The position numbers and the translations under genes are program-made. The notes beneath the pieces were generated by a model. That model searched no databases, was not told where the DNA came from, and was given only the letters and a program-made list of their open reading frames with translations. Positions 1,572 through 29,933 of a stretch of 38,486 nucleotides of DNA are shown piece after piece (the first letter of the stretch is position 1; each line of letters opens with the position of its first letter). Origin of the DNA: Bacteroidales bacterium (GTDB lineage Bacteria; Bacteroidota; Bacteroidia; Bacteroidales; P3); contig JAGCVD010000010.1 of NCBI GenBank assembly GCA_017962545.1, positions 1-38,486 on the forward strand, written 5' to 3'.

Positions 1572-2605
1572 TATACATTCACGTTCCTTTCTGTCATCGC
1601 AAGTGCACCTATTGTGCCTTCTATTCAGTTCGGAGTTCGGAGTTCGGAGTTCGGAATTATGTTGAGGCGTTGTTGCGTGAGATGGAGGAGCGCAAGGGGG
1701 AGCAGGCGCATCCGATAAAGACTGTCTATTTCGGCGGTGGCACACCGTCTATATTGCCCATCGACCTGCTGGCGCGCATCGTCGAGGGGCTGCGCCACTG
1801 CTTCGACCTGTCGCAGGTCGAGGAGGTGACCCTCGAGGCCAATCCCGAAGACTTGACACCCGAGTATCTTGCTTCGCTGAGGACGTTGGGTGTCAACCGT
1901 CTGAGTGTCGGCATACAGAGTCTTGACGATAAGGTGCTGCGGTTGCTCAACCGCCGCCACACGGCACAGCAGGCCCTCGAGGCTGTGGAGAATGCCCACC
2001 GTGCAGGCTTCGATAATATCAGCGTGGATTTTATCTATGGAATTAAAGACCCTAAGGACTTTAAAGTCTTTAAGGACATGGTTTCTCATGTTTCCGTCTA
2101 TGCGCTCACCGTGGAGCCTGGCACAGCGTTGGCTGTGCAGGTGGAGCAGGGGAGGGTGACGTTGCCCGGCGAGGAGGAGGTGGTTAGGCAGTATCATGCG
2201 TTGCACCGCCAGCTCGAGGAGGCCGGTTTCCGCCAGTACGAGGTGAGCAACTACGCCCGTCCGGGCTTTGAGTCGAAGCACAACAGCCGTTATTGGGACC
2301 GCACGCCCTACCTCGGCCTCGGTCCCGGGGCACATAGCTTCGATGGAAAGAAACGCCAATGGAATAACCCCGACGGCACCGTCGGTGAGGAAACGCTCAC
2401 CGAGGCTGACGCCTACAACGAGCTGCTGATGACCTCGCTGCGCACCGTGCGAGGCTTGCCTGCTGAGGTTGTCGCCAAGGGCCAGAAAGAAAAACTGCAG
2501 CCGTATCTCGACTGCAGTTGGTTGGTTTTCCAGGACGGTTTTTACCGTCCCACCACGGAGGGTCTTCTCCATGCCGACGGCATGGCCGCGGCATTGTTTG
2601 TCTAA
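1568..2605 (+). CDS. hemW: Radical SAM protein HemW (coproporphyrinogen oxidase-like, heme chaperone family)
   Basis: The protein opens with MIYIHVPFCHRKCTYCAFYS, which carries the radical SAM CxxxCxxC cluster motif. YFGGGTPS, the EANPED segment, VNRLSVGIQS, YALTVEPGT and HNSRYWDRTPYLGLGPGAH follow in the family order. The CxxxCxxC plus HNxxYW pattern favours HemW over the anaerobic oxidase HemN. At 345 aa it is a little shorter than typical. Two short repeat arrays are read through in frame: four heptamers after the cluster motif (1628-1655), and a Lys-Asp-rich stretch at 2043-2077. It overlaps meaB by four bases at its start and the convergent NPCBM-protein gene by four bases at its end. 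Confidence 0.9.
   Translation: MIYIHVPFCHRKCTYCAFYSVRSSEFGVRNYVEALLREMEERKGEQAHPIKTVYFGGGTPSILPIDLLARIVEGLRHCFDLSQVEEVTLEANPEDLTPEYLASLRTLGVNRLSVGIQSLDDKVLRLLNRRHTAQQALEAVENAHRAGFDNISVDFIYGIKDPKDFKVFKDMVSHVSVYALTVEPGTALAVQVEQGRVTLPGEEEVVRQYHALHRQLEEAGFRQYEVSNYARPGFESKHNSRYWDRTPYLGLGPGAHSFDGKKRQWNNPDGTVGEETLTEADAYNELLMTSLRTVRGLPAEVVAKGQKEKLQPYLDCSWLVFQDGFYRPTTEGLLHADGMAAALFV
1628..1655 (+). repeat. 4 x 7-nt tandem array (GTTCGGA) inside hemW
   Basis: Four perfect GTTCGGA units (28 nt) encode the segment SSEFGVR just after the radical SAM cluster motif. As 28 is not a multiple of three, the units are read in rotating frames, yet the ORF stays open. Confidence 0.95.
2043..2077 (+). repeat. Short AAGGAC/AAAGAC repeat stretch inside hemW
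   Basis: AAAGACCCTAAGGACTTTAA followed by AGTCTTTAAGGAC encodes KDPKDFKVFKD. It uses the same words as the 9-nt array at 29121-29172 in the polyferredoxin gene, and it sits between VDFIYGI and the conserved YALTVEPGT segment. Confidence 0.7.
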
Positions 2606-5505
2606 TCCATTCTGTAGTAGCGCACCTGCTGGAGTGCGGTGCCGGCAGGCACCACCTCGTCGGGACCCAGAGGCAGCAGGAGCGTCTTGTCGGTACTTTG
2701 CACTCCGTCGACGACGATGGTCTGGCGCAGCATCTCGTTGATGTTCTCATTCTCGGCGGATTTTCTCTCCACCAGCTCGTCGGCCTGCTGACGGCACTGG
2801 CTGATGACGTTGGTGCCTAGTTTGATGACGCGTCCGTAGAGGATGAGGTCGGGCGTGTGGGGCACTGCCAGGGTGGCGGAGGGGAGGCAGATGTCGGCGT
2901 CGAGGGCCTTGGCTTTGACAACCTTCGCCATCTTGGCGAAGTCCTCATTGGTGCGCATGATACTCCTGATGCCGAGTTTCTCACCGTTGAGTCCGCGGAA
3001 GGTGATGGCTTTGCAGATGCTGCCGTCGGTGGCCTGCACGTAGTTCTGCTGTATGGTGTACTGACTCTCGCCCTGGGCGAGCATATCCTGTGTGGTCTTC
3101 CAGAGGATGTCGATGGCATCGATAAAATCGTCCATGCTCTTGTCGCCGCTGTGTTTGACGGGCGTCCACACCACGAGTGCTTTCTGCTTCTTGGGCTTGC
3201 TTTTCTTTTCCTTGGCCGGCTTGGCTTTGGCGGGAGCGGCTTTCGGGGCGGCCTTGGGCTGCGCGTTGCGACTCTCAATGATGGTCTTGCGGCTGGGCAG
3301 CGACGAGGGTGTCTGCGGCAGCACCCGTTTATCGAGGGTCATGTCGTAGAGCACATACTGGCCCGAACGCACGTCGCCGCATTGCAGCCAGAAGAGCAAT
3401 TGTTCGCACTTGTGGATGGGCACCGTATAGGTGGTGGGCATCATCTTGTCGGTGAGGATGATTTCGGCCACCGGCATCTGGTCGGCGATGACGTAGAGCG
3501 TCACAGGCGGCGCTTTGCCATCGGCAAACAGTTCGTTAAAGGGGTCAACATATTCGCTCTTGTTGGCCACGGTAAAGGTGATGCTCTCATACTCGCGGTA
3601 GGGGTTGAAGGCTGCCGCCGACGACTGGCCGCCGCCGTCGTTGACCAGGCCCAGCACGGGGGTGGGAATGATGACGGGACCCGCAATGAGTGACACGAGG
3701 GCGGTGCTGAGGCTGATGTCCTCCAAGCCCAGCGGGATATTGGTCTCGAGCATGATGCCTTTGTATATCTTGCGGCCGTCTTTCATCTGGAAGTATTCGC
3801 GCTGCGAGCTGCCGTTCTTGAAGCAGTCATTGAAGTCGAAGTTGGTCAGCGTGCTGAGGTAGCGTCCCACATAGTGGAAATAGGGCCGCTTGCAGAGGTC
3901 GATAAGGTCCACTTGGTCAGGACACTCGGGCTTTTCATGCACGAAGAGGTCGTTGGGGCGAGGCTTGCCGCGGTAGAGCACTACATCGGCGATGCCAAAG
4001 TAGACCTGCTTCTTCTGGTTGTTGCCGGGCTTGACGAATTTGAGGTTGCGGCAGCGGTTCAGCGGCAGCTCGAAGTGCTTGTTGGGCTCCAGGGCGTGGA
4101 TGGTGGTCTCAAGGATGAGTTTGTCATCGGCATATACGCGAATGATGTCGTCGTCGAGCACACGGTGTTGTGTGAGGCAGCCGGCGGTGAAGCTGATCCA
4201 GTCATATTCGCCTGCCAAGTCGAAGGTGGCGAAGCTGTTGATGTTGTCGTCAAAAAGTGTCGTGCCTGTGGTCAGTATGAATCCTTCCCAGAACTGCTCG
4301 CCGCCCATGGAGAAAGTGTAGTGGCGGCTGGCGCCGTCGAAGTAGGTGTTGGAATGCGACGATACGCCGCGTACCGAGTAGGGTGGTATGTTGCTGCACA
4401 TGGCGCAGACGTCGGGAAGTTTACTGATGCGCTCTTTCGAGCCGTTGACGAGACCCGCCGAAGGTACGCCGCTGCTGCCAGCAGGCCAGGCCTCGATATT
4501 TACCACGCCGAAGGTGATGGAGGCCACGAAGTCGCCGTCGGCGTATTCGCCGTGGAACGACAGCTGGTTGACCCCTTTGACGTCGAGCACTACTTGTTCG
4601 GCCATATCTGTCTGGCTTACTTTATGTTCGTAGAGTATCTTGCCGTCGCCTTTGACGGTGAGCCAGGCCTGGGTGCGTGAACTCTGGTTGTCGCGAGGTC
4701 CGACGATGAAGCTAACCTTGTCGTATTTCTTCTGCAGCCAGAAGTAGGCCCAGCTTTGGTTGGTGCCGGCAAGTGCCTGGTCGAGCGAGAACTCAAGGCC
4801 TGTATTGTAGGTGACGCGGTTGATGCTGATGCTCTTGGTGATATGGCAACCCTGGCTGCCTTCGCGGTCGGTGATGGCGGCAATCCATCCGCTGTGACGG
4901 ATATAGTGCGGCCACAGGTCTTTCACCAGCGTTACCTTGCCTGACGGCAGTTTCAGCGGGTTGGGCGCAGGGGTGGGTTTCTGTCCGGCTTTCCACAGGC
5001 GGGCGGCGGCTACGGCCAGGTCGGTCGAGCCCCGCATCACGTCGAAACGCAACTCTTTGACTCCCTTCACGTCCAGTATCACCTCGCGTGGTGCATCGTG
5101 GTTCCACACCACCTCGTCGAGCAGCGTGCGTCCATCGCCCTTGATGGTGACGATGACATTGCTGCCGTCGCCAGCCGAGTTGGGACCGTTGAAGTATTCA
5201 AACTCGCCGGTGTTGTACTCGCCGCCGTAGGGTCCTATGACGAAGCTCAGCTTGTCGTAAGCGCCGTTAAGGTTGAACACAGCATGGCCGCCGGGGTTGT
5301 CGGAAGATATCAGTCCACCCACGCCTGTGGTAAGTTTGAAGCCGCCTCGGTAGCCGTATCGGGCCACACAGAAGGCCTTGTCCTTCGACTTGAAACAGGT
5401 GTAGCGTTTCTGGCTTGTTGGTGTCAGCACGTCGGTCAGGTATACTTGTGCCATAACATTGCCGGCAAGCATTGTTATTGCCAGCGCCAGTAGTAACTTT
5501 TTCAT
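2602..5505 (-). CDS. Secreted protein with four NPCBM-like carbohydrate-binding domains
   Basis: The 967-aa product begins with a Sec signal peptide (MKKLLLALAITMLAGNVMAQ). About four beta-rich units follow, at residues ~30-170, ~195-335, ~385-515 and ~555-725. Several repeat the pattern YDK(L/V)SF(V/I)GP ... (T/V)(I/V)KGDG(R/K) ... (V)(I/V)LDVKGV(K/N)(E/Q)L, which is characteristic of NPCBM-type modules. A Lys/Ala/Pro-rich basic linker (~735-780) joins them to a C-terminal domain (~780-967) I do not recognise. No catalytic domain and no type IX C-terminal domain is visible. The gene is last in an operon behind the stress-protein and SPOR genes (12-nt gap) and converges on hemW with a four-base overlap. 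Binding of surface or wall glycans is plausible but inferred. Confidence 0.75.
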   Translation of the reverse strand: MKKLLLALAITMLAGNVMAQVYLTDVLTPTSQKRYTCFKSKDKAFCVARYGYRGGFKLTTGVGGLISSDNPGGHAVFNLNGAYDKLSFVIGPYGGEYNTGEFEYFNGPNSAGDGSNVIVTIKGDGRTLLDEVVWNHDAPREVILDVKGVKELRFDVMRGSTDLAVAAARLWKAGQKPTPAPNPLKLPSGKVTLVKDLWPHYIRHSGWIAAITDREGSQGCHITKSISINRVTYNTGLEFSLDQALAGTNQSWAYFWLQKKYDKVSFIVGPRDNQSSRTQAWLTVKGDGKILYEHKVSQTDMAEQVVLDVKGVNQLSFHGEYADGDFVASITFGVVNIEAWPAGSSGVPSAGLVNGSKERISKLPDVCAMCSNIPPYSVRGVSSHSNTYFDGASRHYTFSMGGEQFWEGFILTTGTTLFDDNINSFATFDLAGEYDWISFTAGCLTQHRVLDDDIIRVYADDKLILETTIHALEPNKHFELPLNRCRNLKFVKPGNNQKKQVYFGIADVVLYRGKPRPNDLFVHEKPECPDQVDLIDLCKRPYFHYVGRYLSTLTNFDFNDCFKNGSSQREYFQMKDGRKIYKGIMLETNIPLGLEDISLSTALVSLIAGPVIIPTPVLGLVNDGGGQSSAAAFNPYREYESITFTVANKSEYVDPFNELFADGKAPPVTLYVIADQMPVAEIILTDKMMPTTYTVPIHKCEQLLFWLQCGDVRSGQYVLYDMTLDKRVLPQTPSSLPSRKTIIESRNAQPKAAPKAAPAKAKPAKEKKSKPKKQKALVVWTPVKHSGDKSMDDFIDAIDILWKTTQDMLAQGESQYTIQQNYVQATDGSICKAITFRGLNGEKLGIRSIMRTNEDFAKMAKVVKAKALDADICLPSATLAVPHTPDLILYGRVIKLGTNVISQCRQQADELVERKSAENENINEMLRQTIVVDGVQSTDKTLLLPLGPDEVVPAGTALQQVRYYRMD

Positions 5506-5517
5506 AATGCGGTGTGT

Positions 5518-5964: not shown

Positions 5965-5968
5965 GAGA

Positions 5969-6937: not shown

Positions 6938-6973
6938 AAAAGTTTCATTTATATAAAAAAAGAGGACTCCCTG

Positions 6974-8143: not shown

Positions 8144-9472
8144 ATGAAGACATTCCGAATGGGTGGTGTACACCCCGAAGAGAACAAGATATCGAACGAT
8201 GCCGCCATCGAGGTGATGCCCGTGGGCAAGCAGATGGTGGTGCTTATGAACCAGCACCTGGGTGCTCCCGCCACGCCGATAGTGCAGAAAGGCGACAAGG
8301 TGAAGGTGGGTCAGCTCATCGGCGAGGCTCAGACCTTCATGTGTGCCAATGTTCACTCGCCCGTGAGCGGCACTGTGCTGAAGGTGGAGCCCTGCAAGGA
8401 TGCTTTCGGCCTGGCCAAGCCGGCCGTCTATATCAATGTGGAGGGCGACGAGTGGATGGAGAGCATCGACCGGACGCCCGACATCAAGCGCGAATGCACG
8501 CTGGAGCCCAAGGAGATTGTCGCCAAGCTGAAGGAGATGGGTATCGTCGGCCTCGGCGGCGCCACCTTCCCGGCCCACATCAAATACAGCATCCCCGAGG
8601 GTAAGAAGGCGGAGTATCTGATAGTGAATGCCGCCGAGTGCGAGCCCTATCTGACGAGCGACTACCGTGTGATGATGGAGCATGCCGAAGAGGTGTGCAT
8701 CGGCGTGAGCATCCTGCGCAAGGCGCTGGGTGTCCCCAACGCCTATATCGGCATCGAGAGCAACAAGCCGCTGGCCATCGCCCACATGCAGGAGGTGGTC
8801 AAAGGCTTCGAGGGCATCATCGTCGAGCCCCTGAAGGTGAAGTACCCGCAGGGCGCCGAGAAGCAGCTCATCAACGCCGTCACGGGCCGCAAGGTGCCCA
8901 GCGGCAAGCTGCCTATCGACGTGGGCTGTGTGGTCAGCAACCTTGGCACCTGCTTCTCGGTGTACGAGGCTATCCAGAAGAACAAACCCCTGATAGAGAA
9001 TATTCTCACCGTCACCGGTAAGGAGTTGCCCAGCCAGCACAACTACATTGTGCGTATCGGCACCACCTATAATGAGATTATCGCCCACAGCATCGGCCAG
9101 CTTCCCGAGACCACCGGCAAGGTGATCAGCGGCGGCACAATGATGGGCAAGGCTGTGGTGAACCTCGACGCTCCCACGGTGAAGGGCAACAGCAGCGTGC
9201 TGGTGATAGGGGAGAAGGAGGCACTCCGTGCGGAGGAGACCAACTGCATACGCTGCGGCAAGTGCATGCACGCCTGCCCCATGGGCTTGGAGCCCTACCT
9301 CTTCTCGGCGTTGGTGAAGAACAACCGCATTGAGGAGGCCAAGGAACACAACATCCTCGACTGCATCGAGTGTGGCTGCTGCTTCTTCAGTTGTCCGGCC
9401 AACAAGCCGTTGACCGACGAGATACGTCTGGGCAAGAACAAGGTGCGTGCCATGATGGCGGCGAAGAAATAG
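8144..9472 (+). CDS. rnfC: Rnf electron transport complex subunit C
   Basis: The 442-aa protein opens with the short barrel-like N-terminal domain (MKTFRMGGVHPEENK) typical of RnfC. The flavin/NADH-binding core has GLGGATFPAHIKY and the NAAECEPYLTSDYR motif seen in NuoF-like proteins. Two 4Fe-4S sites follow: CIRCGKCMHACPMGLEPY and CIECGCCFFSCPANKP. It is the NAD(H)-interacting peripheral subunit of Rnf. Its stop is followed by an AT-rich heptamer array and then rnfD. Confidence 0.95.
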   Translation: MKTFRMGGVHPEENKISNDAAIEVMPVGKQMVVLMNQHLGAPATPIVQKGDKVKVGQLIGEAQTFMCANVHSPVSGTVLKVEPCKDAFGLAKPAVYINVEGDEWMESIDRTPDIKRECTLEPKEIVAKLKEMGIVGLGGATFPAHIKYSIPEGKKAEYLIVNAAECEPYLTSDYRVMMEHAEEVCIGVSILRKALGVPNAYIGIESNKPLAIAHMQEVVKGFEGIIVEPLKVKYPQGAEKQLINAVTGRKVPSGKLPIDVGCVVSNLGTCFSVYEAIQKNKPLIENILTVTGKELPSQHNYIVRIGTTYNEIIAHSIGQLPETTGKVISGGTMMGKAVVNLDAPTVKGNSSVLVIGEKEALRAEETNCIRCGKCMHACPMGLEPYLFSALVKNNRIEEAKEHNILDCIECGCCFFSCPANKPLTDEIRLGKNKVRAMMAAKK

Positions 9473-9502
9473 TTATGAGTTAAGAATTAAGAATTAAGTA
9501 TT
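9473..9502 (+). repeat. Heptamer array (GAATTAA-type) between rnfC and rnfD
   Basis: After the rnfC stop the spacer reads GTTATGA, GTTAAGA, ATTAAGA, ATTAAGT, ATTATGA, a degenerate 7-nt tandem array whose last unit contains the rnfD start codon. Confidence 0.75.
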
Positions 9503-10462
9503 ATGAACTTATTAAATATATCGGGCTCGCCCCACGTGCACAGCGACGAGTCGACAAAGAAAATCATGTGGCGCGTCAACCTGGCTCTGGTGCCGGCGTT
9601 GCTGTGCGCCATCGCCTATTTCGGTATCAACGCGCTGCTCGTCAGCCTCATCTCGGTGGCCAGCTGTGTGTTGTTCCAGTGGCTGATTGAGAAATTCATA
9701 CTGAAGCAGAAGAGCACCGTGTGGGATGGCTCGGCCATCGTCACGGGTCTCTTGCTGGCCTTCAACGTTCCCGCCACGGTCGACATGATGTGGATTGTCG
9801 TCATTGGTGCGCTGGTGGCTATCGGAGTGGCCAAAATGGCTTTCGGCGGATTGGGCAAGAACCCCTTCAACCCCGCCATCGTGGGTCGTATCTTCCTGCT
9901 CATCTCGTTCCCCGTACAGATGACCACCTGGCCGCAGGTGGGCGGTCTCTTCCCCATGAACTTCGACGTGGCCACGGGTGCCACGCCGCTGGGCGCCTTC
10001 AAGGAGGGTGCCTTGGGTGAGGGCGTGACCTTTATGGATGCCTTCCTCGGCCACATCGGCGGCTCGATGGGCGAGGTGTCGGCCATCGCCATACTCCTCG
10101 GCGCCATCTATCTGCTCTGCCGCAAGATTATCAGCTGGCACATCCCGGTGGCCTTCATCGGCACGGCCTTCGTGTTCAGCGGCATCCTGTGGCTCGTCGA
10201 TCCGCAGAGCTATATGGATCCCGTGATGACCATCCTCACCGGCGGTATCATGCTGGGTGCCTGCTTTATGGCCACCGATATGGTGACGTCGCCTATGGCG
10301 AAGAGCGGCCAGCTCATCTTCGGTTTCGGCTGCGGCCTGCTGACCATCGTCATCCGCAACTGGGGCTCCTATCCCGAGGGCGTGAGTTTCGCCATCCTCA
10401 TTATGAACAGTGTCACACCGTTGCTCAACCGCTGGTGCAAACCCAAACGTTTCGCGAATTAA
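9503..10462 (+). CDS. rnfD: Rnf electron transport complex subunit D (membrane flavoprotein)
   Basis: The 319-aa polytopic membrane protein has hydrophobic segments across its whole length and the HVHSDESTKKIMWRVNLALV start typical of RnfD/NqrB. The covalent-FMN threonine motif is visible as VATGATPLG near residue 155, and GGLGKNPFNPAIVGR precedes it, as in the family. RnfD is part of the ion-translocating membrane core. It lies between rnfC and rnfG, with spacers made of short tandem words on both sides. Confidence 0.94.
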   Translation: MNLLNISGSPHVHSDESTKKIMWRVNLALVPALLCAIAYFGINALLVSLISVASCVLFQWLIEKFILKQKSTVWDGSAIVTGLLLAFNVPATVDMMWIVVIGALVAIGVAKMAFGGLGKNPFNPAIVGRIFLLISFPVQMTTWPQVGGLFPMNFDVATGATPLGAFKEGALGEGVTFMDAFLGHIGGSMGEVSAIAILLGAIYLLCRKIISWHIPVAFIGTAFVFSGILWLVDPQSYMDPVMTILTGGIMLGACFMATDMVTSPMAKSGQLIFGFGCGLLTIVIRNWGSYPEGVSFAILIMNSVTPLLNRWCKPKRFAN

Positions 10463-10505
10463 GTAGTTAAGTAGACAGTAGTTAAGTAGTAAAGACAATA
10501 CAATT
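10463..10505 (+). repeat. GTAGTTAA repeat words between rnfD and rnfG
   Basis: The spacer contains GTAGTTAAGTAGACAGTAGT followed by TAAGTAGTAAAG, an imperfect tandem of the GTAGTTAA word that recurs at 27461-27577 in both orientations. Confidence 0.7.
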
Positions 10506-18876: not shown

Positions 18877-20102
18877 ATACTAACGACATCCGTATCAACC
18901 TACCAGCATCGAAGAGCATGAGCAACCGATGGTTGATTATCAACCATTTGATAGGTAGCCATTTCCGTATAGGGAAGTTGTCTACCTCCGACGACACTAA
19001 GTTGCTGCGCACGCTGCTTACCCAGATGGAGACACACTCTTCCGATGTCTACTATTGTAACAATGCGGGGTCTGTGGCACGCTTCATCATGCCCCAGCTG
19101 GCCATCACCTCGGGCCATCATATCCTCACAGGCGACGACCGTCTGTGCCAGCGTCCCATGGCGCCGCTCATCGACGCTTTGCGCCAGATGGGCTTCCGGA
19201 TAGAATGTATGGAGCAGGAGGGCTTCCTGCCGGTGCAGATACAGGGTGGGGTGCCCACCAAACGCACGGTGCTGGTCGATCCGTTGCTCAGCAGCCAGTT
19301 TGTCAGCGCCCTGTTGCTGGTGGCGCCCAAGATGTCCGATGGCATCTCCCTGACCATGACGCAACGTCCCACGTCGCGGCCTTATATCGAGATGACATGC
19401 GACGCGCTGCGTCAGGCGGGTGTCGAGGTGCGCCGTTCCTCCAACGGCCGCACCTATTACGTGCAACCCTTCCAGGGCAAGCCCAAGCCAGCCTGCATCA
19501 CCATTGAGCGCGACTGGTCGTCGGCATCCTATTTCTATACCATGGCTATGCTGCGTCCCGACCTGCGTATCCGGCTGCTGGGCCTACAGCTCGACAGCAC
19601 GCAGGGCGACAGCGCCACCGACCGTTTCTTCCGCCAACTGGGAGTCGTCAGCACCGAGGTGCGCTCGCCCTATCGCGCCAGTGGCCGCAGTGTCACTTTG
19701 CAGGGTGGGGGAGAGAAAACCAAGACGGTGCAGTTCAATTGTATCGACTGTCCCGACTTGGTGCCCACCTTCGCTGTGGCGGCAGCGGCATCGGGCTTGC
19801 GCACAGTCCTCAAAGGGGTGAGCAACATCGCCCTCAAGGAGAGTGACCGCCGTGAGGCCATCACCACGGAGCTGCGCCGCATGGGTGTCACGGTCAACGC
19901 CAGCGAGGACGAGCTCCACATCCTGCCCTCGACGCTGAAACCCAAAGAGATGGTACGTACCTACGGCGACCACCGTATCGCCATGGCCTTTGCCCCGCTG
20001 CAGCTGCTCTTCCCCGAACTCAAGATTGAGAATCCGCCGGTGGTGGGCAAGTCGTTCCCTGAGTTCTGGGATGAGTTTGAGAAAGTGCTGGCAGCCAAGT
20101 GA
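18873..20102 (+). CDS. aroA: 3-phosphoshikimate 1-carboxyvinyltransferase (EPSP synthase)
   Basis: The 409-aa protein shows the family series INLPASKSMSNRWLIINHL (shikimate-binding SKSxSNR), NNAGSVARFIMPQLA, the LTGDDRLCQRPMAPLIDALR segment, SSQFVSALLL, and YGDHRIAMAFA near the end. The motifs are slightly degenerate (NAGSVARF rather than NAGTAMRF), which I believe is normal in Bacteroidetes. It joins phosphoenolpyruvate to shikimate-3-phosphate in aromatic amino acid biosynthesis. Starts and stops overlap both neighbours by four bases (ATGA and GTGA), so translation is probably coupled. Confidence 0.95.
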
Positions 20103-20932
20103 GGCGATTGATAATCATAGCAGGCCCCACGGCAGTGGGCAAGACAGCCTATGCCGTGCAGCTGGCGCGGGAGCTGGGCACCGAGATAGTCTCCTGCGAC
20201 TCGCGCCAGTTCTACTGTGAGTTGCGCATCGGTGTGGCGCGCCCCACCGATGAGGAACTGGCCGCTGTGCCTCATCATTTCATAGCCTGCCGCTCTGTCA
20301 CCGCCCCTTACAATATCTATGACTATGCGCAGGATGCCCTGCGGGTCATCAACGCCCTCTTCGAGACGCACGACACGGTGCTGGCTGTCGGAGGCAGCGG
20401 CCTCTATATCGACGCCTTGCGGGGTTGTGTCAGCCGTATGCCCAGCCCCACGCCTGAGTTGCGTGAGCGTCTGCAGCAGATGCCGCTGGAGGAGAAACGC
20501 GCGCAGCTGAAATTGCTGGACCCTGTCTATTACGACCGTGTCGACCTGCGCAACCCCGTGCGTCTGCAGCGGGCCCTTGAGGTTTGCCTCATGACGGGCC
20601 GCCCCTACAGTGAGGTGATAGCGGAAAGAGAAAAATGGAAAGAGGAAAATGGAAAATGGGAGACCGTAGTGCGTGTTCTTGAAATGGAGCGCACCGAACT
20701 GCGCGAGCGCATCGACCGGCGCGTGGACGCGATGATGCAGGAGGGTCTGCTCGACGAGGTGCGCTCGCTGTTGCCTTATCGTGAGCTGAACACCCTGAAC
20801 ACGGTGGGCTACCGTGAGCTTTTCCCCGTGATAGACGGAACGGAAGAACTTGACCATGCCGTCGACATGATTAAACTCAACACCTGGCATTACGCCCGCA
20901 AGCAGATGACTTGGATGAAGAGGTATTGCTGA
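20099..20932 (+). CDS. miaA: tRNA dimethylallyltransferase
   Basis: The protein starts with a GTG in a GTGA overlap with aroA and reads MRRLIIIAGPTAVGKTAYAV (P-loop GPTAVGKT). It continues with IVSCDSRQFY, VGGSGLYIDAL, DRVDLRNPVRLQRALEV and TVGYRELFPV. MiaA adds a dimethylallyl group to A37 of tRNAs that read U-starting codons. At 277 aa it is short for the family (usually about 300 or more). A heptamer array at 20632-20659 encodes a charged stretch (EKWKEENGKWE) in the middle of the protein, after the SEVIAE segment. A hairpin repeat lies immediately downstream. Confidence 0.94.
   Translation: MRRLIIIAGPTAVGKTAYAVQLARELGTEIVSCDSRQFYCELRIGVARPTDEELAAVPHHFIACRSVTAPYNIYDYAQDALRVINALFETHDTVLAVGGSGLYIDALRGCVSRMPSPTPELRERLQQMPLEEKRAQLKLLDPVYYDRVDLRNPVRLQRALEVCLMTGRPYSEVIAEREKWKEENGKWETVVRVLEMERTELRERIDRRVDAMMQEGLLDEVRSLLPYRELNTLNTVGYRELFPVIDGTEELDHAVDMIKLNTWHYARKQMTWMKRYC
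20632..20659 (+). repeat. 4 x 7-nt tandem array (AAAATGG) inside miaA
   Basis: The units are AAAATGG, AAAGAGG, AAAATGG, AAAATGG (28 nt, the second a variant). The array is read through and gives a Lys/Glu/Trp-rich insert. Confidence 0.9.
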
Positions 20933-20960
20933 TTCCCTTTTTTTGAGTGTCAATTGCCCG

Positions 20961-21016
20961 TTCTTTGGTATTTCTTTGGAAAAAAGCAAAGAAATACCAA
21001 AGAAATACCAAAGAAA
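20961..21016. repeat. Intergenic hairpin built from 11-nt units (copy 2)
   Basis: Arms 20961-20978 and 20987-21004 are perfect 18-bp complements around the loop GAAAAAAG, identical to the loop of the copy at 356-412. The right side continues with units of the type AAAGAAATACC (two, then AAAGAAATGCC). It lies between the convergent miaA and fucosidase genes, where it could act as a bidirectional terminator. The 105-nt gap holds nothing else. Confidence 0.85.
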
Positions 21017-21037
21017 TGCCTACGAAATGAGGAAGAC

Positions 21038-22291
21038 TTATTTGCGTTGTCTTCCTTTCAGCTCACGGACGACGGCATAGGGAGTCTCGTCGATGAGGGT
21101 GATGGCATACTGGTGCTTGCCGTCCTTGCTCTGTGTGTAGCGGGTGTTGCCGTCACAATAAGGGGCGAGTGGACGGGTGCCGTAGATGGCGTAGCCGTTC
21201 TTGTCCAGCCATTTGCCTATCTCTTCCATGCGCTGCAGAGCCTCGGTGGGCAGGTTGCCGTCGGCGTCGGGACCTACATTGAGCAGCAGGTTGCCGCCCT
21301 TGGCCACCACGTCGACAAGCATGTGGATGAGCGTCTTGGTGGACTTGTAGTTGTCGTTGGGTACGTAACTCCAGCTGTCGCCCATGGTCATGCAGGTCTC
21401 CCAGGGGTAGGGCAGGAGGGTGTCGGGCACCTGCTTCTCGGGGGTGCGGTAGTTCTCATATCGGCCGCCGACGCTGCGGTCGACGATAATCATCCTGGGA
21501 TTCTTCTCTCGGGCGATATCGGCCACATGGCGCATGTCGATTTCCTGCACCTGTCCTGAGCATCCAAGCCAGGGTCGTGTCTCGTCGTTGACGCTCCAGG
21601 CAGGGCGAATCCAGCCGCCATCGAGCCAGAGGATGTCGATGTCGCCATAATTGTGGGTCAGCTCACGTATCTGGTTGTAGGTGAAGTTGCAGTATCGTTG
21701 CCAGCGGTCGGGATGGTCGGCGATGGAGTAGTTGACGTTGCGGTCGGGTGTGGCCCACTCATGCGCCCAGTAGTCGTCGCAGTGCCAGTCGGGCTTGCTG
21801 AAATAGAGGCCTATCCACATATTCTCGGCGCGGAAGGCATCCACCACGCCGCGCGTGAAGTCGGTCTTAGCAGGGCTGTATATGCTGGTATAGTCGGTAC
21901 ACTTCGAGTCGAACATGCAAAAGCCGTCGTGGTGCTTGGTGGTGAAGACGACGTACTTCATGCCCGCCTGCTTGGCGGCCGCCGCCCAGCCTTCGGGGTC
22001 AAAGTGTTTGGGGTTGAATGTCTTGTTGAGCGCCCAGTAGGCACGCTTGTAGTCCTCATAGTTGGCGCCGCCGCGGTTAATCCAAGGTTCATTGCAGAGG
22101 TTCCAACTCTCCACGATGCCCCACTGGGCATAGATACCCCAGTGCATCATGAAGCCGAATTTGAGGTCCTGCCACTCGCCGATGCGCTGCACAATGGCAG
22201 GGTCGCTCTCGGGAATGCTGTCGTGCTGCGCTTTCACGCTGCCCATAAGGCCCATTAAACCCATTAATCCTATAATGATTGTCTTTTTCAT
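21038..22291 (-). CDS. Secreted alpha-L-fucosidase, GH29
   Basis: The 417-aa protein has a signal peptide, MKKTIIIGLMGLMGLMGSVK then AQ, whose core is a GLM tandem. The GH29 barrel shows KFGFMMHWGIYAQWG, YVVFTTKHHDGFCMFDSK, GLYFSKPDW, and DILWLDGGW, in which the Asp of LDGGW is the expected nucleophile. GGNLLLNVGPDADG is the usual late motif. It removes alpha-L-fucose from glycans, acting in the periplasm or at the surface. It is the last gene of the long minus operon; its ATG overlaps the GH3 stop (ATGA). It lacks a long C-terminal accessory domain. Confidence 0.93.
   Translation of the reverse strand: MKKTIIIGLMGLMGLMGSVKAQHDSIPESDPAIVQRIGEWQDLKFGFMMHWGIYAQWGIVESWNLCNEPWINRGGANYEDYKRAYWALNKTFNPKHFDPEGWAAAAKQAGMKYVVFTTKHHDGFCMFDSKCTDYTSIYSPAKTDFTRGVVDAFRAENMWIGLYFSKPDWHCDDYWAHEWATPDRNVNYSIADHPDRWQRYCNFTYNQIRELTHNYGDIDILWLDGGWIRPAWSVNDETRPWLGCSGQVQEIDMRHVADIAREKNPRMIIVDRSVGGRYENYRTPEKQVPDTLLPYPWETCMTMGDSWSYVPNDNYKSTKTLIHMLVDVVAKGGNLLLNVGPDADGNLPTEALQRMEEIGKWLDKNGYAIYGTRPLAPYCDGNTRYTQSKDGKHQYAITLIDETPYAVVRELKGRQRK
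22242..22268 (-). repeat. 3 x 9-nt tandem in the fucosidase signal peptide
   Basis: On the plus strand the units are CCCATAAGG, CCCATTAAA, CCCATTAAT. They encode the GLMGLMGLM hydrophobic core of the signal peptide. Confidence 0.8.
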
Positions 22292-24807
22292 TTCCTATTG
22301 TGATAAGTGAACGGTAAGTCAAACAGGTCGCGGTCGTCGCTGCTGAAGCCTATTTGGATGGTGAACTTGGTGCCGTCGGCCGGTTCCTCCATCAGGCCGG
22401 TTTCAGCGTTGTACTGGCGGAACCAGAAAGGATCGAGCTGGATGGTGAAGGGCTTCAGGCGACGGTCCTCAGTGAGAATCAATGAGGCAATTCCAATCAA
22501 CTGCTTGACAGGCGCTTCGGGGTCATTATCGTTTTTAAGGTATACCTGTACCACTGCGCGGTGGTATCCGGCATTTGGCGCGTCGGTGTTGCAGAGGCTG
22601 GCAGTGCCGCTGACGGTGAAGTTGGCCTCGGAGACAGAAGGCTCCTTGATGGAGAAGAAGCTGTAGCTGTAGCCGAAACCGAAAGGAAAGAGGGCGTCGC
22701 CATTGTCAAGGTAGCGGTAAGTGCGACGTTGCATGTCGTAGTTCTCGAAGTCGGGCAGTTGGTCTGTCGAGCGGTAGAAGGTGACGGGAAGGTGCCCGAA
22801 GTCGTCACGCTGGCCGAAGAGCAGTTGTTCCACGGCGGTGCCCATGTCCTGGCCACCATACCAAGCTACGAGGATGGCATCGCAGTCCTCAATAACGTTT
22901 TCAAGGGCAATGGCCGAACCGGTGCAGAGCACCAATACCACGCGGTAGCCCTGGGCCTTGAAGGCCTTTATCTCCTCCACTTGCTCCCGTGGCAACTCTA
23001 TGCGCGTGCGGTCACCCTTATAAAACCCCTCTTTCTCGACGGGAAGCTCCTCGCCCTCGAGTTGGGGATTGAGGCCACCGACGTAGACGAGGGTCTTGCC
23101 GTCGCCGGCACTAAGCACTTGGTAGCTGCCCAGAGCTTCACCGATGGTGACGGTGTGTTTCGGTGTGCCATTGTAATTGCCCAGAGGCATGAGGCTGTCG
23201 TAAACGTTGGGACCTTCGAGACGGAGAGACTCGTTATCCTTGAGCGGCAGCACGCCGTTGTTTTTCAGCAGTACCATGGAAGCTGTCGGCACTTCCAAAG
23301 TCTCGGCCTCCACGATAGCAGACCGCGAAGTCTGTTCCGTGGCACGGATTCTTGTCTTGAGAATTCTCCTTACATGCTCGTCCACCTTGCTTTCTGGCAC
23401 AAGGCCTTGCTGCACAGCCTCGCGCAGGGCGGGTAGGCCGCTGCCACATTCGAGGTCCACCTCACGTCCGAAGGCGTCGCCGTAAGCGGCGGCGGCAGTG
23501 GCGTGGGTGCGGTGGCGCGGGATGATGGTGTCGGTCTCGTAGGCGTCGTTCAAAGCCCAGCAGTCGGTGACGAGGATGCCGTCGTACAGCCATTCGTTGC
23601 GCAGGATGTCGAAGAGTCGTCGGTTGGTGCAGCAGGGCTCACCATTGAGGCGGTTGTATCCACACATCACCTGCTGTACGTCGCTGTTCTTGATGATATA
23701 CTCGAAGGCTGTAAGATAGGTGGTGCGCAGGTCGCGCTCCGAGACACGGCTGTCGAACTCGTGGCGTGTACCTTCGGGGCCGCTATGCACGGCGAAATGC
23801 TTGAGGCAGGCGGCGGCGCTGAGCTCTGCAGGGTCGGGCTCGCCGCCATCGAAGTAATCGTAGGCATGCTGAAGACCTTCCACGCAGGCCAGTCCCATCA
23901 CGGCGGTGAGGTAGGGATCCTCGCCGTAGGTCTCCATGCCGCGTCCCCAGCGCGGGTCACGGAAGATGTTGATATTCGGGGTAAAGAAGGTCAGACCGCT
24001 ATAGTCGCCATAACCGTTGGTGTCCTGAGATTCTTGGTATTTTGAGCGGGCCTCAAAGGCCACGTTGTTGAATACATTACGAATCAGCCGAGGCTCGAAA
24101 GTGGCAGCCATCGCGATAGGCATGGGGTAGACGGTGGCCTCGCCGGCACGGCCCACGCCGTGCAGCGCCTCGTTCCACCAACTGTAGGGTTTCAGTCCCA
24201 CATGCTCGATGGCGGGGTTCTGGTGCACCATGAGGCTCAGTTTCTCATCAAGCGTCAGGTGCCGTATCAGCCACTCCACCCGCTCGTCGAGGCTCCGTTG
24301 TGGGTCCTGCCAGGGGTAGTCGTAGAGTAAAGGCTGCAACTCGCGCTCGAAGATGTCGCGCCGCACGATGCGGTAGTGTGGATGGTAGGCTTCGTTGAAG
24401 GCCCGGCTGTGGTGCTTCACCCGGCTTGGGTCGACCGAAGGCATCCCTTGGGCGCTGCGTAGCACCGCCGACGTCAGCTGCCGCAGGCTGATGCGACCGT
24501 CCTTGACCACCCGCAGGTTGACCCTCACGAAGTTGCTGTCGCACAGTGTGTATTCATACAGGGGGAACTGGTCGGACGGTACCATCGACGCCACCTCGCT
24601 CTCAATATAGCGGGCGCAGGAGGCCGAGTCCTTGATGAGGTGGCCGGGACCATAGGTGTCCTGGAACACCAGCTTCTGCAGGTCCTGCTCCTCGGCGGCA
24701 GGGTAGCGCTGGGCGTAGCGCTGCAAGGCTACAGGACACTGGGCGGGGGAAATTGAAAATTGAAAATTGAAAATTGAAATTATTGCTAATAGAATAATTC
24801 GTTTCAT
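22288..24807 (-). CDS. Secreted GH3 glycoside hydrolase with an extra N-terminal domain
   Basis: The 839-aa protein has a Sec signal peptide (MKRIILLAIISIFNFQFSIS, PAQ) whose core is encoded by a heptamer array. Residues ~25-145 form an uncommon extra domain (FQDTYGPGHLI; HHSRAFNEAYHPHYRIVRRD). The GH3 part starts near 147 (LDERVEWLIRHLTLDEKLSL) and shows FFTPNINIFRDPRWGRGMET, CLKHFAVH, and GILVTDCWALNDAY with the nucleophile Asp. It ends with the GH3 C-terminal sandwich and an FnIII-like domain (FPFGFGYSYSFF; VQVYLKN). Beta-xylosidase or beta-glucosidase activity is likely; the exact substrate is unknown. It overlaps tatC and the fucosidase gene by four bases each. Confidence 0.92.
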   Translation of the reverse strand: MKRIILLAIISIFNFQFSISPAQCPVALQRYAQRYPAAEEQDLQKLVFQDTYGPGHLIKDSASCARYIESEVASMVPSDQFPLYEYTLCDSNFVRVNLRVVKDGRISLRQLTSAVLRSAQGMPSVDPSRVKHHSRAFNEAYHPHYRIVRRDIFERELQPLLYDYPWQDPQRSLDERVEWLIRHLTLDEKLSLMVHQNPAIEHVGLKPYSWWNEALHGVGRAGEATVYPMPIAMAATFEPRLIRNVFNNVAFEARSKYQESQDTNGYGDYSGLTFFTPNINIFRDPRWGRGMETYGEDPYLTAVMGLACVEGLQHAYDYFDGGEPDPAELSAAACLKHFAVHSGPEGTRHEFDSRVSERDLRTTYLTAFEYIIKNSDVQQVMCGYNRLNGEPCCTNRRLFDILRNEWLYDGILVTDCWALNDAYETDTIIPRHRTHATAAAAYGDAFGREVDLECGSGLPALREAVQQGLVPESKVDEHVRRILKTRIRATEQTSRSAIVEAETLEVPTASMVLLKNNGVLPLKDNESLRLEGPNVYDSLMPLGNYNGTPKHTVTIGEALGSYQVLSAGDGKTLVYVGGLNPQLEGEELPVEKEGFYKGDRTRIELPREQVEEIKAFKAQGYRVVLVLCTGSAIALENVIEDCDAILVAWYGGQDMGTAVEQLLFGQRDDFGHLPVTFYRSTDQLPDFENYDMQRRTYRYLDNGDALFPFGFGYSYSFFSIKEPSVSEANFTVSGTASLCNTDAPNAGYHRAVVQVYLKNDNDPEAPVKQLIGIASLILTEDRRLKPFTIQLDPFWFRQYNAETGLMEEPADGTKFTIQIGFSSDDRDLFDLPFTYHNRK
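24751..24778 (-). repeat. 4 x 7-nt tandem array (AATTGAA) in the GH3 signal peptide
   Basis: Four perfect AATTGAA units (plus strand) encode, on the minus strand, the IFNFQFSIS part of the signal peptide. Because seven is not a multiple of three, successive units are read in different frames and all give hydrophobic or neutral residues. Confidence 0.95.
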
Positions 24808-25496: not shown

Positions 25497-25524
25497 CGTT
25501 TGGAGACTTCAAGTCGTCAAGACC

Positions 25525-25749
25525 TCAAGACTTCGAGTTCTCTGTATTAGTGTCGTTATGTCTTGATGACTCGATGTCTTGATGACTCGATGTCTTTTCA
25601 TCTTCCACGCCATTGACGCCGTCCTTGAAGCTCTTGACTCCCTTGCCGATGCCGCGCATAAGCTCGGGAATCTTCTTGCCGCCGAAAAGCAGCAGCACCA
25701 CGAGGACGATGAGGATAATCTCCCAAGTACCCAAGAATAACAGTTTCAT
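25525..25749 (-). CDS. tatA: Sec-independent protein translocase TatA
   Basis: The 74-aa protein has the short N-terminal helix ([20 protein letters not shown]), the [20 protein letters not shown] amphipathic helix with the conserved FG and P-E-L, and a hydrophilic tail. The tail ([20 protein letters not shown]) is partly encoded by a 16-nt tandem. TatA forms the size-fitted pore part of the translocase. Its start overlaps the stop of the preceding small membrane protein gene (ATGA). Confidence 0.95.
25565..25596 (-). repeat. 2 x 16-nt tandem in the tatA 3' end
   Basis: GATGACTCGATGTCTT occurs twice in direct succession (each made of two related 8-mers), and more fragments of the same words extend toward tatC (25505-25564). 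It encodes the variable tail of TatA in two reading frames. Confidence 0.9.
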
Positions 25750-26057
25750 TTTTTTGATTTTAAAATATTTCCTTTTTTGTCTTTTTTCAATTCCTTGCCG
25801 TTTTTATAGACATGGGCACCTTTGAGGCTTTCCCTTTTTACTTCCCATGCATCTATTAAACCTCTTCCAAATCTACCTCCAAATAGCACTATTACGATGA
25901 GCGAAATTATACATACGAGGATTTCCAAAAACGTCTTACCAACGAGTCTTTCCAGCGGTTGTCGGTAAAATAGCACAACTATTAAGACGAGCGTAAGTAT
26001 AAATCCGATGATGTATCCGCGGATTATGCGGTTTTTCAAAGTTTTCAAAGGTTTCAT
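25746..26057 (-). CDS. Small membrane protein of unknown function, AT-rich
   Basis: The 103-aa product has two predicted membrane helices (residues ~14-30, [17 protein letters not shown], and ~42-60, [19 protein letters not shown]), followed by a basic C-terminal part ([19 protein letters not shown]). No family is recognised. It starts inside an ATGA overlap with the aldo/keto reductase gene and ends in an ATGA overlap with tatA, so it is firmly in the operon. Its base composition is clearly more AT-rich than its neighbours, which suggests a different origin or relaxed selection. A role as a Tat accessory protein is possible but only inferred from position. Confidence 0.75.
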
Positions 26058-27445: not shown

Positions 27446-27460
27446 AATATTCCTTTCTTG

Positions 27461-27577
27461 GTAGTTAAGGAGTTAAGTAGTTATCGCTTCGCTCGCCCTT
27501 CGGGCAGTAGTTAAGACAATAGCATGTCGTCTACCAGCAGTATTGCCTTAACTACTTAACTACTGTCCACTTAACTA
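27461..27577. repeat. Repeat-rich spacer between the YitT-like and aldo/keto reductase genes
   Basis: The 132-nt gap is mostly GTTAAG-type words in both orientations. 27507-27521 (GTAGTTAAGACAATA) pairs with 27541-27555 (TATTGCCTTAACTAC) with one mismatch over 15 bp. Just upstream, GCCCTTCGGGC (27495-27505) forms a small GC-rich hairpin. The inverted repeat could attenuate transcription between the two halves of the operon. No TAnnTTTG box was seen for the downstream gene. Confidence 0.7.
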
Positions 27578-28543
27578 CTATCTTTTGTTCATCTGTTCCT
27601 CTAATTCCTTGCGTTTCTTGGTGCTGAACCACAGGCCGTACACCTCGCTGACATTGTTGGCTGTCGTGAAGGCGTTGATTTTCTCGGCTTTCATCCAGGC
27701 CATCAGGCTGCTGAAGTCGTCCTTGTTGAGCAGCACCTCGAGCTCGATGCTCTTCTCGCCGGTGTAGCCGCCGATGACCTCGTACAGCGTGCAGCCGCGG
27801 TGCAGCTTGTCGGTGATATACTGCCGTATGCGCTCGTAGTCCTTCGACACGATGCACACCCTCTTGCGGCGGTTCAGCGAGGCGGTGAAGTAATCCACCA
27901 CCAGGCCGTTGATCCAAGTGCCGATGAGGCCGATGATGACCATGCGGAATGGGTTGATGGCGAAGGCCGTGCAGCAGATGACGGCGCCGGCGATGCTCAC
28001 CGAGGTGCCGATGTCGAAGTGCAGGTATTTGTTCACTATCTTGGCCAGGATGTCCAATCCGCCCGTCGAGGCGTTGATGCTGAACATCAGCGCCTGGCTG
28101 GCACTCAGCAGCAGCACGAAGCAGCAGAGGTCGAGCCACGGGTCGCCCATTACCGACATCGCTCCGGTCACGGGGTTGTCGTTGGCGATGTTCTGCCAAG
28201 GGTAAATCTTGCCCCAGAGGTCGATCATCGGACCCAGGATGAGGGCTGTGTAGACCGTCTTGAAGCCGAACTCGCGGTCAATGAGGAGGAAGGCGAGGAT
28301 GAGCAGGATGATGTTGATGATGGTGACAAGGGTACCGACGGTGATGTTGATGCCCATGGAGCCGAAGATGTTGCTCAGCACAATGGAGAGACCCGAGATG
28401 GTGCCGATAATCAGCTTGCTGGGCACCAGGAAATAGTAGACGGCTGAGGCGCATACCATCATGCCCAGGGTCATAATAACCAGCTCCTTCCAGAATTTGA
28501 AGGTGCCGACATACTTGATTGCTTCTGTTATTTTGTTGCTCAT
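27578..28543 (-). CDS. YitT/DUF161-family membrane protein with DUF2179 domain
   Basis: The 321-aa protein has about five membrane helices in the first 230 residues (for example FWKELVIMTLGMMVCASAVY), with the family's SINASTGGLDILAKIVNKYL segment. A soluble C-terminal domain (~235-315) of DUF2179 type follows, with RGCTLYEVIGGYTGEKSIEL. The biochemical role of this family is not established. Its ATG overlaps the polyferredoxin stop (ATGA), so it is cotranscribed with it. Confidence 0.85.
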   Translation of the reverse strand: MSNKITEAIKYVGTFKFWKELVIMTLGMMVCASAVYYFLVPSKLIIGTISGLSIVLSNIFGSMGINITVGTLVTIINIILLILAFLLIDREFGFKTVYTALILGPMIDLWGKIYPWQNIANDNPVTGAMSVMGDPWLDLCCFVLLLSASQALMFSINASTGGLDILAKIVNKYLHFDIGTSVSIAGAVICCTAFAINPFRMVIIGLIGTWINGLVVDYFTASLNRRKRVCIVSKDYERIRQYITDKLHRGCTLYEVIGGYTGEKSIELEVLLNKDDFSSLMAWMKAEKINAFTTANNVSEVYGLWFSTKKRKELEEQMNKR

Positions 28544-29901
28544 ATTTCTGTGTGTATTTGTTTTCCTTCAACATAGATGGCTGTCACGGGACGTGCCGGA
28601 CAGTAGTATTCGCAGGCGCCGCAACCCAGGCAGCGGGCCTCGTTCACGGCGGGCTTGCCGTCGACCATCGTGATGGCCTCCGACGGGCAATGGCGTGCGC
28701 AGCTTCCGCAGCCTATGCAGTTGTCTTTCAGCACCACAGCCACGCCTGTCGACACTGCCGTCTTCTCCTCCTTGGTGATGGGCAGTATGGCGCCCGTGGG
28801 GCACACCTCGCTGCAGCGCGTGCAAGCCGTGCGGCAGTAGCCGTCGCTGAAGTTCATCTCGGGTTGCATCAGGCTCTCCAGCTGGGTCGAGGGGCGCAAC
28901 ACCTTCTCGGGGCACTGGCTCACGCAGAGCTGGCAGGCCGTGCAATGTGACGAGAAGTGCTTGAGGCTCTGGGAGCCGGCTGGCTCGACGGGCGTCTTGC
29001 GCTCAGGTACCTGCTTGTGTGTCAGCGCCGCCAGGCCGCCGTCGAGCTTCTGCTCCTGGGCCTGAGCCGCCATCGTGACGCCCACGGCCACCGTGCCCGC
29101 CACGAACTTGCGGCGCGAAGAGTCCTTAAGGTCTTTAGGGTCCTTAAGGTCCTTAGGGTCTTTAAGTTTAAGGCCGAACTTTATCGCTCCTGTCTTGCAC
29201 TCGCCCAGGCAGTTGAAGCAATCCACGCAGCGCGAGTGGTCGACGGTGTGGTTGTCGACATCGATGCACATCGCCTTGCAGCCGTGCTCGCACTTGCGGC
29301 AGCCGCCGCATTTGCTCTCGTCGATGCGGATGCCCAGCAGGCGGTGGCGGCTCACCAGGCTCAGCAGCGAGCCCACGGGGCACAAGGTGTTGCACCATAG
29401 GCGTCCCCACACGAAGCTCATCACGCCCACGCAGCACAGCGTGGCGATGGCCACCCAGTGTACCAGCCCCGTGCCGTGAATGTTCGTCACCATGCGGGCG
29501 TAGGCGCTGTAGGGCGCTATCAGGGAGGCGATACCATTGATTCCCAGTACCATCAACAGCACGAAGAGTCCCAGGACTATGTAGCGCAGCCAGTTCTGCG
29601 GCTTGTGGTAGCGGTAGGGGCGCTTCTTGCCGAAGATAATCTTGTGGAACCACACGAGGATGTCCTGGAACACGCCCATGGGGCATGCCACCGAGCAGTA
29701 GAGACGGCCCACGAGGAACGTCATCAGCAGCACGGCCACGATAATCACCACGTTCAGCGCCAGCACGGCGGGCAGCAGCTGAATCTTGGGCATCCAGCCG
29801 AGCCAGTGGCGCAGCATGCCTGTGGCGTCGAACAGCAGCGCCGTGATGCCTGCCAGCATCACCGCCGCCAGGATAATTCTTATTGTCTTGAGTGTTTTCA
29901 T
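28540..29901 (-). CDS. NapH-like membrane polyferredoxin fused to a NapG-like ferredoxin
   Basis: The 453-aa product has two parts. Residues 1-~245 form a NapH-like membrane protein with several helices, the two CxxxCP motifs of that family (CSVACPMG and CNTLCPVG), and a pair of 4Fe-4S sites (CGGCRKCEHGCK and CVDCFNCLGECK). After a Lys-Asp-Leu-rich linker made by 9-nt repeats comes an internal twin-arginine-like segment (SRRKFVAGTVAVGVTMAAQA). A NapG-like part follows, with CTACQLCVSQCP, CTRCSEVCP, CIGCGSCARHCP and CLGCGACEYYCP. NapGH-type proteins pass electrons from the quinol pool to periplasmic acceptors. It follows the regulator gene by 26 nt of heptamer repeat and overlaps the YitT-like gene. 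Confidence 0.88.
   Translation of the reverse strand: MKTLKTIRIILAAVMLAGITALLFDATGMLRHWLGWMPKIQLLPAVLALNVVIIVAVLLMTFLVGRLYCSVACPMGVFQDILVWFHKIIFGKKRPYRYHKPQNWLRYIVLGLFVLLMVLGINGIASLIAPYSAYARMVTNIHGTGLVHWVAIATLCCVGVMSFVWGRLWCNTLCPVGSLLSLVSRHRLLGIRIDESKCGGCRKCEHGCKAMCIDVDNHTVDHSRCVDCFNCLGECKTGAIKFGLKLKDPKDLKDPKDLKDSSRRKFVAGTVAVGVTMAAQAQEQKLDGGLAALTHKQVPERKTPVEPAGSQSLKHFSSHCTACQLCVSQCPEKVLRPSTQLESLMQPEMNFSDGYCRTACTRCSEVCPTGAILPITKEEKTAVSTGVAVVLKDNCIGCGSCARHCPSEAITMVDGKPAVNEARCLGCGACEYYCPARPVTAIYVEGKQIHTEI
29121..29172 (-). repeat. 9-nt tandem array at the NapH/NapG fusion joint
   Basis: Units of the type AAGGACCCT/AAAGACCTT repeat about five times and encode LKDPKDLKDPKDLKD between the NapH-like and NapG-like parts. 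Nine is a multiple of three, so the frame is kept. Confidence 0.9.
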
Positions 29902-29905
29902 AGTC

Positions 29906-29933
29906 TTTAACCTTTAACCTCTAACCTTTAACC
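29906..29933 (-). repeat. 4 x 7-nt tandem array (GGTTAAA) across the regulator stop codon
   Basis: On the plus strand the units are TTTAACC, TTTAACC, TCTAACC, TTTAACC. Read on the minus strand, the first unit supplies the TAA stop of the regulator gene, and the rest fill nearly all of the spacer before the polyferredoxin ATG. Confidence 0.95.

Follow-up and report, generated by a model that had tools for sequence, protein, structure and literature searches.

Dispersed 7-nt tandem arrays with several words per genome are known from filamentous cyanobacteria, where they are called STRR. Comparable arrays have been described in Geobacter, Xanthomonas and several other groups. The Gmet_H4 element of Geobacter metallireducens consists of four tandem GC-rich heptamers (consensus GGGACCG/GGACCGG) and occurs at 49 intergenic and intragenic places as a predicted regulatory RNA element; further tandem hepta- and octanucleotide families are reported from this species, partly arranged as opposite-strand pairs (PMC2700814). 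The Xanthomonas arrays are built of a single G-quadruplex-forming word, GGGAATC, which is discussed as intergenic; they are dispersed, contain mostly four units and up to 26, and some form convergent pairs. The same paper mentions three Calothrix heptamers and reports an over-representation of heptamers in bacteria (PMC4692102), for which no cause has been accepted. Direct repeats of TAACTGA have been reported from Beggiatoaceae, cyanobacteria and five Bacteroidetes; in the BOGUAY genome, they comprise 2–6 copies with doublets being the commonest, and there is no four-unit mode (PMC4679880). Rickettsia palindromic elements, about 150 bp long and forming several families per genome, are found in-frame in unrelated protein genes, according to a review (PMC10969869).

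The window analysed here is a whole stretch of 38,486 nucleotides from a Bacteroidales bacterium, contig 31 in a draft genome of 1.95 Mb (G000), and it contains several heptamer arrays (Table 1). A first-pass annotation had reported four arrays of exactly four 7-nt units each. Their coordinates were reproduced; two of the arrays are perfect and two contain one imperfect unit, and the fractional copy numbers (Table 1) indicate that "exactly four" refers to whole units. A looser AT-rich array, placed originally at 9473–9502, is present as well, but is best read as an AATTAAG array with slightly wider limits.

Table 1. Arrays and array-bearing genes of the window (positions refer to the whole stretch; gene identities are domain assignments).
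Feature	Position	Strand	Remarks
Period-11 array	356-386		
HemW-like radical SAM gene	1568-2605	+	domain assignment
(A)GTTCGGA array, four units, 4.1 copies	1627-1655	+	perfect four-unit core at 1628-1655
AATTAAG array, 4.7 copies	9471-9503	+	rnfC-rnfD spacer, adjoins rnfD start codon
AAGTAGTT-type octamer array, 75% matches	10459-10494	+	behind rnfD, in a spacer whose word class varies between congeners
MiaA-like gene (IPP transferase)	20099-20932	+	domain assignment
AAAATGG array, four units, 4.0 copies	20632-20659	+	one unit is AAAGAGG; in MiaA-like gene
Period-11 array	20950-21045		between convergent genes
Glycoside hydrolase family 3 (GH3) gene	22288-24807	-	domain assignment
AAATTGA array, 4.3 copies	24750-24779	-	four perfect AATTGAA units at 24751-24778; in GH3 gene
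TTTAACC array, 4.6 copies	29905-29936	-	four units at 29906-29933, one unit is TCTAACC
LuxR-type gene	29928-30806	-	stop codon inside TTTAACC array

The location of three arrays inside genes and of the fourth over a stop codon, also claimed at first pass, was confirmed. In the HemW-like gene, the array encodes SVRSSEFGVRN in a loop situated right behind the CxxxCxxC motif; in the GH3 gene, it encodes ISIFNFQFSI in an N-terminal signal-like region, and the signal-like N-terminus, MKRIILLAIISIFNFQFSIS, is partly array-encoded. The stretch orthologous to the array of the MiaA-like gene is 9 nt shorter in six of nine aligned relatives. The TTTAACC array bridges the stop codon of the LuxR-type gene to a start codon ATG at 29901, filling the short gap. 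An Rfam search of the window gave no match.

Three perfect period-7 runs were found in the window, compared with 0.13 expected from a first-order Markov simulation, which served as the null for all the expected runs. Other perfect runs have periods of 3, 8, 9, 11 and 16, and mismatch-tolerant arrays with periods of 6, 8, 9, 11, 14 and 16 were also detected; 7 is therefore not the sole unit length in the window. In a 408-kb sample of G000 (21% of the genome), 7 is the commonest period, with 30 perfect runs versus 0.3–0.7 expected, followed by periods 8, 9 and 11 with 8–9 perfect runs each; the excess of period 7, on which the first-pass reading had been staked, is thus large. Genomes G061 (322 kb sampled) and G064 (400 kb) contain 23 and 62 perfect period-7 runs, respectively, with simulated values not exceeding 1.0, and the spectrum of G061 peaks again at period 11, with 30 runs. 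No perfect period-7 runs were found in 400 kb of three genomes of the same order (samples of 200, 100 and 100 kb). Some more distant genomes of the same genus (G021, G027, G016 and G003) have 0–2 period-7 arrays per 34–40 kb; the trait is thus pronounced in one portion of the genus only.

Pooled period-7 arrays (276, including some orthologous pairs and hence not all independent births) use 90 words, compared with 191 expected after permutation of the letters within words. Pairs of arrays have the same word in 4.5% of cases within genomes and in 2.2% between genomes (three genomes; 0 of 300 permutations), and G and C are confined to one strand in 42 of 76 distinct words versus 23.8 expected. 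The difference of the words, emphasised in the first-pass annotation, holds among the arrays of the window, but the words recur genome-wide: GTTCGGA occurs at six places in the genome of the window, its own included, at five in G096 and altogether in 8 of 99 genus genomes, and AATTGAA, with at most one mismatch, is found at 14 places in the genome of the window, its own included. The flanks of these six and 14 sites look unrelated. The word GTGGAAA is present in 27 of the 99 genus genomes (79 matches in G089, 33 in G120 and 27 in G127) and has no match in the genome of the window. AAAGGTG, used as the reversed control of GTGGAAA, had 76 matches in G036 and peaked in genomes other than those rich in GTGGAAA; it is itself a genus word with matches in other genomes and is therefore not a clean control. 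The counts of both words are over-dispersed (variance/mean 33 for GTGGAAA and 41 for AAAGGTG) and uncorrelated with each other (rho 0.02, 32 genomes), which indicates that some genomes have multiplied a few words, the choice of words differing between them. GTTTAAA was found in three of eight genus members (own included) and in none of the 53 other family members searched. A phylum-wide scan for GTGGAAA revealed a patchy distribution (6 of 395 genomes), with many copies in two of them; isolated Bacteroidota genomes of other families are rich in single words, for example G393 and G502 (GTGGAAA) and G452 (AAAGGTG), and such bursts may therefore recur across the phylum.

When mismatches were allowed, the commonest length of the period-7 arrays was 31 nt, and 28, 60, 141, 31 and 21 of the 281 detected arrays contained two, three, four, five and more whole units, respectively. 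The score threshold under-detects mutated three-unit arrays and loses nearly all two-unit arrays; for this reason, detection was simulated and the true sizes were fitted at six mutation rates. The fitted number of three-unit arrays was 0–56 at all six rates; that of four-unit arrays was 144–206 at rates of 0–0.05, with small residuals, and 177 at 0.08, and at rates of 0.10 and 0.13, where the fit is poor, it was 160 and 64 and was exceeded by that of five-unit arrays (192 and 347). The observed unit identity of 0.94 matches the higher mutation rates, about 0.08–0.13. The fitted number of two-unit arrays (690–2622) rests on an expected detection of 1–4% of them; simple duplications may therefore form a large class that escapes notice.

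An exact 18-mer search for GTGGAAA in G089, which is free of the score-threshold bias and still blind to two-unit arrays, yielded 54 sites, none of them with more than 38 perfect nt. One, two and three overlapping 18-mer matches were found at 21, 30 and 3 sites and none was longer; geometric decay predicts 32, 13 and 5 and was rejected (p = 4e-8). At the 20 of these 54 sites where the units were read (the first in contig order), four units were counted in 11, five in six, three in two and seven in one. Perfect runs alone fall off with copy number in the 408 kb of G000 (14, 10 and 6 runs of two, three and four copies). An explanation of the four-unit peak as a detection artefact was not favoured, given the low fitted number of three-unit arrays and the limited size of the exact matches in G089. 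The supposed constancy of the copy number, accordingly, can be kept in a weaker form: among arrays of three or more units, four whole units are modal genus-wide and the size is near-constant, but it is not fixed.

Reading frame contributes to this size. ORFs were called greedily (≥90 aa) and not with gene-finding software. The number of extra units preserves the frame in 72 of 122 arrays lying deep in ORFs versus 33 of 81 intergenic arrays (p = 0.015); 70 of the 122 had four units, and period-9 arrays in the same position had mostly two copies (47/71). Filtering by reading frame accounts for part of the in-gene bias towards four units. A purely frame-driven origin of the four copies was rejected, since four units also peak between genes (29/81) and near gene ends (42/78).

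Comparison with the described systems places these arrays among elements of a known kind. As in Geobacter, four 7-nt units are the commonest size (half of the detected arrays and 11 of the 20 sites read in G089), and a single word can be present in dozens of unlinked copies, such as the G089 sites, in and between genes. The Geobacter families have one GC-rich word each and a proposed regulatory RNA role, whereas the Bacteroidales genus, as sampled, has 90 words, multiplied genome by genome and turned over at orthologous sites, and support for such a role was not found in its arrays; the Geobacter word GGGACCG is absent from the 281 sampled genus arrays, and kinship by descent is not claimed. 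The Xanthomonas arrays are similar in their dispersed heptamers, four-unit majority and intergenic variation at the same site between relatives; unlike them, the four words of the window lack a GGG run and three of their four arrays are intragenic. A GGG run is present in 14 of the 281 genus arrays and GGGAATC in none. The TAACTGA system resembles the genus in that its heptamer arrays occupy many sites, frequently close to start codons and in some cases in ORFs, and differs from it in having one word, which is likewise found in none of the 281 sampled arrays. The cyanobacterial STRR have other words and belong to another phylum. Compared with the Rickettsia elements, the Bacteroidales arrays are short (~30 bp), tandem and mostly devoid of an inverted mate.

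The first-pass statement that no equivalent is described in Bacteroidales needs a qualifier, as TAACTGA heptamer arrays have been reported in five Bacteroidetes (PMC4679880). A search of the open-licence literature (Bacteroidales, Bacteroidetes and rumen arrays, bacterial heptamer SSRs and four-heptamer elements) revealed no description of heptamer or tandem arrays of this genus, which does not prove its absence. The kind of element is already known; its word-switching, in-gene version in a Bacteroidales genus is new.

Orthologous sites illustrate the word switching. HemW proteins of congeners have arrays in at least three loops; the loop that harbours the array of the window contains GTTCGGA units in the window and in G061 and GTGGAGA-type units, some of them degenerate (as judged by eye), in six other genomes, and has no array in further ones. 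In a second HemW loop, of nearly equal length in all, one genome has units of TTTCACC and four have units of TTTCAAT. At the DNA level, orthologous loops can have one word, a different word, an 8-nt word or nothing. The spacer after rnfD at 38 loci shows the classes GTTTAAx, AAAATTG, ATCAACGT (8 nt), AAGTAGTT (8 nt), CACTGAA, other and none, assigned by eye. After five loci with an rnfD identical to one kept were dropped, at least 20 changes of spacer class were required on the tree of 33 rnfD genes, compared with 21.5 for shuffled labels (48 of 200 shufflings as low), and 16 changes without the four rows classed as "other"; the sister rnfD genes of G067 and G068, about 4% apart, are followed by spacers of different classes. 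Word turnover at orthologous sites outpaces gene divergence.

Comparisons of closer genomes revealed no array-linked indel in G021/G027 (HSPs of 92–98%, few arrays) and no clean array birth in G063/G149 (mean 91% over 22 kb), G067/G068 and G008/G023. One array differs by two units between close genomes (L089/L090). In G068, two in-ORF heptamer arrays reach 12–14 units (L213 9981–10075 and L090 11036–11124); the corresponding loops of relatives contain about four units or none.

The ends of the arrays are not randomly phased. In a test of 140 arrays of 15 families, which assumes uniform phases and disregards flank composition, none of 2000 random draws was as extreme for the starts and one of 2000 for the ends; at 14 of the 20 G089 sites read, the array starts in one of two adjacent phases, AGTGGAA or AAGTGGA, and an open frame longer than 150 codons runs through 15 of the 20. 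Near-identical arrays were removed in this test and in that of variant-unit order only. The check for target-site duplication at these 20 sites found no shared flank motif. Exact 16-mers common to the 60-nt flanks of unlinked arrays were found in 2 of 1596 pairs in G000, 7 of 7875 in G064 and 2 of 1378 in G061; non-periodic 20-mers common to unlinked array regions were found in five pairs in G000, four in G061 and at least 10 in G064, and are partly variant units inside the arrays. An inverted match of at least 12 nt within 150 nt accompanies 16 of 271 period-7 arrays (shuffled control 0). The arrays do not match MITEs or other palindromic elements in terminal inverted repeats, and a hairpin function of period-7 arrays was rejected as well, hairpins being characteristic of the period-11 class.

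Our tentative reading, to which we assign a probability of about 0.48, is that the arrays represent genome-specific families of a dispersed element of ~28–31 bp, consisting of about four copies of one 7-bp word with preferred end phases and placed by copying in trans. Word-specific copying would place an array in one event, without stepwise growth from a seed at the site; the route might be templated patch synthesis or ectopic conversion by a donor that carries this word. Selection would then retain arrays in spacers, N-termini and tolerant loops and would favour frame-keeping lengths in genes (three extra units make 21 nt), and mutation would erode the arrays until they are replaced. No templating enzyme or donor for the arrays was found in this analysis. 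A more specific version, in which a trans-acting system copies a short template as a ~30-nt patch with a 7-nt period and the word changes between species, seems rather doubtful; if it is true, each species would paint its own genome, genes included, with its own heptamers. The first-pass interpretation, copying or templating with a fixed 7-nt period, is partly supported by these data.

Local replication slippage, or local tandem duplication, in preferred steps of 7 nt (perhaps a polymerase-contact effect) and followed by selection for frame and site tolerance, is a possible explanation, according to which the recurrent words would be sequences that slip or are tolerated. The over-representation of heptamers in bacteria agrees with it, and a polymerase active-site slippage hypothesis is cited in PMC4692102; the frame filtering deep in ORFs, the two-unit difference between close genomes and the possible unseen class of two-unit arrays point in the same direction. 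The match of the word to the site in 24 comparisons with shorter homologs was 5.5 of 7 versus 5.0 of 7 for control words, which leaves room for local seeds, the support for a local seed being weak. Column patterns of variant units (ABAB 34, AABB 26, ABBA 10; detection is biased) would fit a local duplication of blocks. Loci had their order of variant units in common in 25 of 534 pairs versus 15.9 expected (5 of 300 permutations as high); copying of whole arrays predicts a common order, so this weak excess counts against copying in trans, and the support for a derivation of the arrays from master arrays with a common variant order is weak. Slippage, however, fails to predict the presence of one word at 54 unlinked sites of G089 and its absence from most congeners, the four-unit peak outside ORFs and the non-random end phases. 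The expectation at first pass that slippage of one seed would not give such arrays was borne out, local slippage of one seed being a poor explanation. Local slippage thus appears insufficient by itself, and copying in trans fits better.

The arrays might alternatively be functional binding sites of an RNA- or DNA-binding regulator with changing specificity, kept by selection, as suggested by published proposals for TAACTGA (a translational regulator) and the Geobacter four-heptamer elements (putative regulatory elements) and by the observation that some arrays end near start codons. This is improbable: of the 276 period-7 arrays, 133 are contained entirely in greedily called ORFs, in either orientation (the G-rich strand is the sense strand in 50 and the antisense strand in 82, with one neutral case). 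Close species have different words at one site, and several species have no array there; folding of three period-7 arrays of the window revealed no unusual structure, and selection by itself creates no 28-nt arrays.

Word switching at orthologous sites might also result from horizontal exchange of spacers between species by homologous recombination. Non-repeat interior letters of the spacer after rnfD are common to the distant species G000, G004 and G067, and G120 and G064 have nearly the whole spacer in common; recombination between species therefore probably plays a part. As the explanation of the arrays themselves, exchange is very improbable, since it accounts for mosaic spacers but not for one word at dozens of unlinked sites, including gene loops. 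An assembly or binning artefact can practically be dismissed: the nine named relatives found with HemW are Bacteroidales/Bacteroidetes assemblies titled as MAGs or uncultured (three from ruminant stomachs, by title), but the same features occur in many independent assemblies, inside open frames and with conserved flanks.

Other repeat classes are present in the same genomes. The period-11 arrays form a separate class; of the 119 located outside ORFs, 51 are accompanied by an inverted mate no more than 150 nt away. The class is represented at two places of the window (Table 1), and at the one between convergent genes, the arms form a hairpin (-30.4 kcal/mol, z -6.8). In one 11-mer hairpin compared between G023 and G008 (L132/L137), one arm is longer by about one unit in G023, and the opposite arm has matching letters. 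The rnfC-rnfD spacer of several congeners (loci L127, L139, L225 and L235) contains a hairpin made of an 8-nt array and, behind it, the reverse complement of this array, the word differing among species (TGCTTGAT...AATCAAGC; GCGTTAAT...), and that of the remaining congeners has a GC-rich hairpin or none. The genome of the window also contains compound AGGAGAT/AGGAGAC-type arrays of up to 8.9 copies (L016 17262–17521 and L019 4126–4258), which are long, have 8- and 15-nt units and are unlike the short heptamer arrays.

The genus, with 120 genomes, several of which multiply different words, a switching orthologous spacer and many in-gene arrays, is a good test bed for the origin of such elements. 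If copying by a trans-acting mechanism is true, it would be a new source of variation in spacers and protein loops; if slippage is the cause, the data would show a preferred product size of slippage. Either way, loops encoded by repeats, for example SSEFGVR, KVESGKW and NFQFSIF, will be present in annotation and protein alignments of this group.
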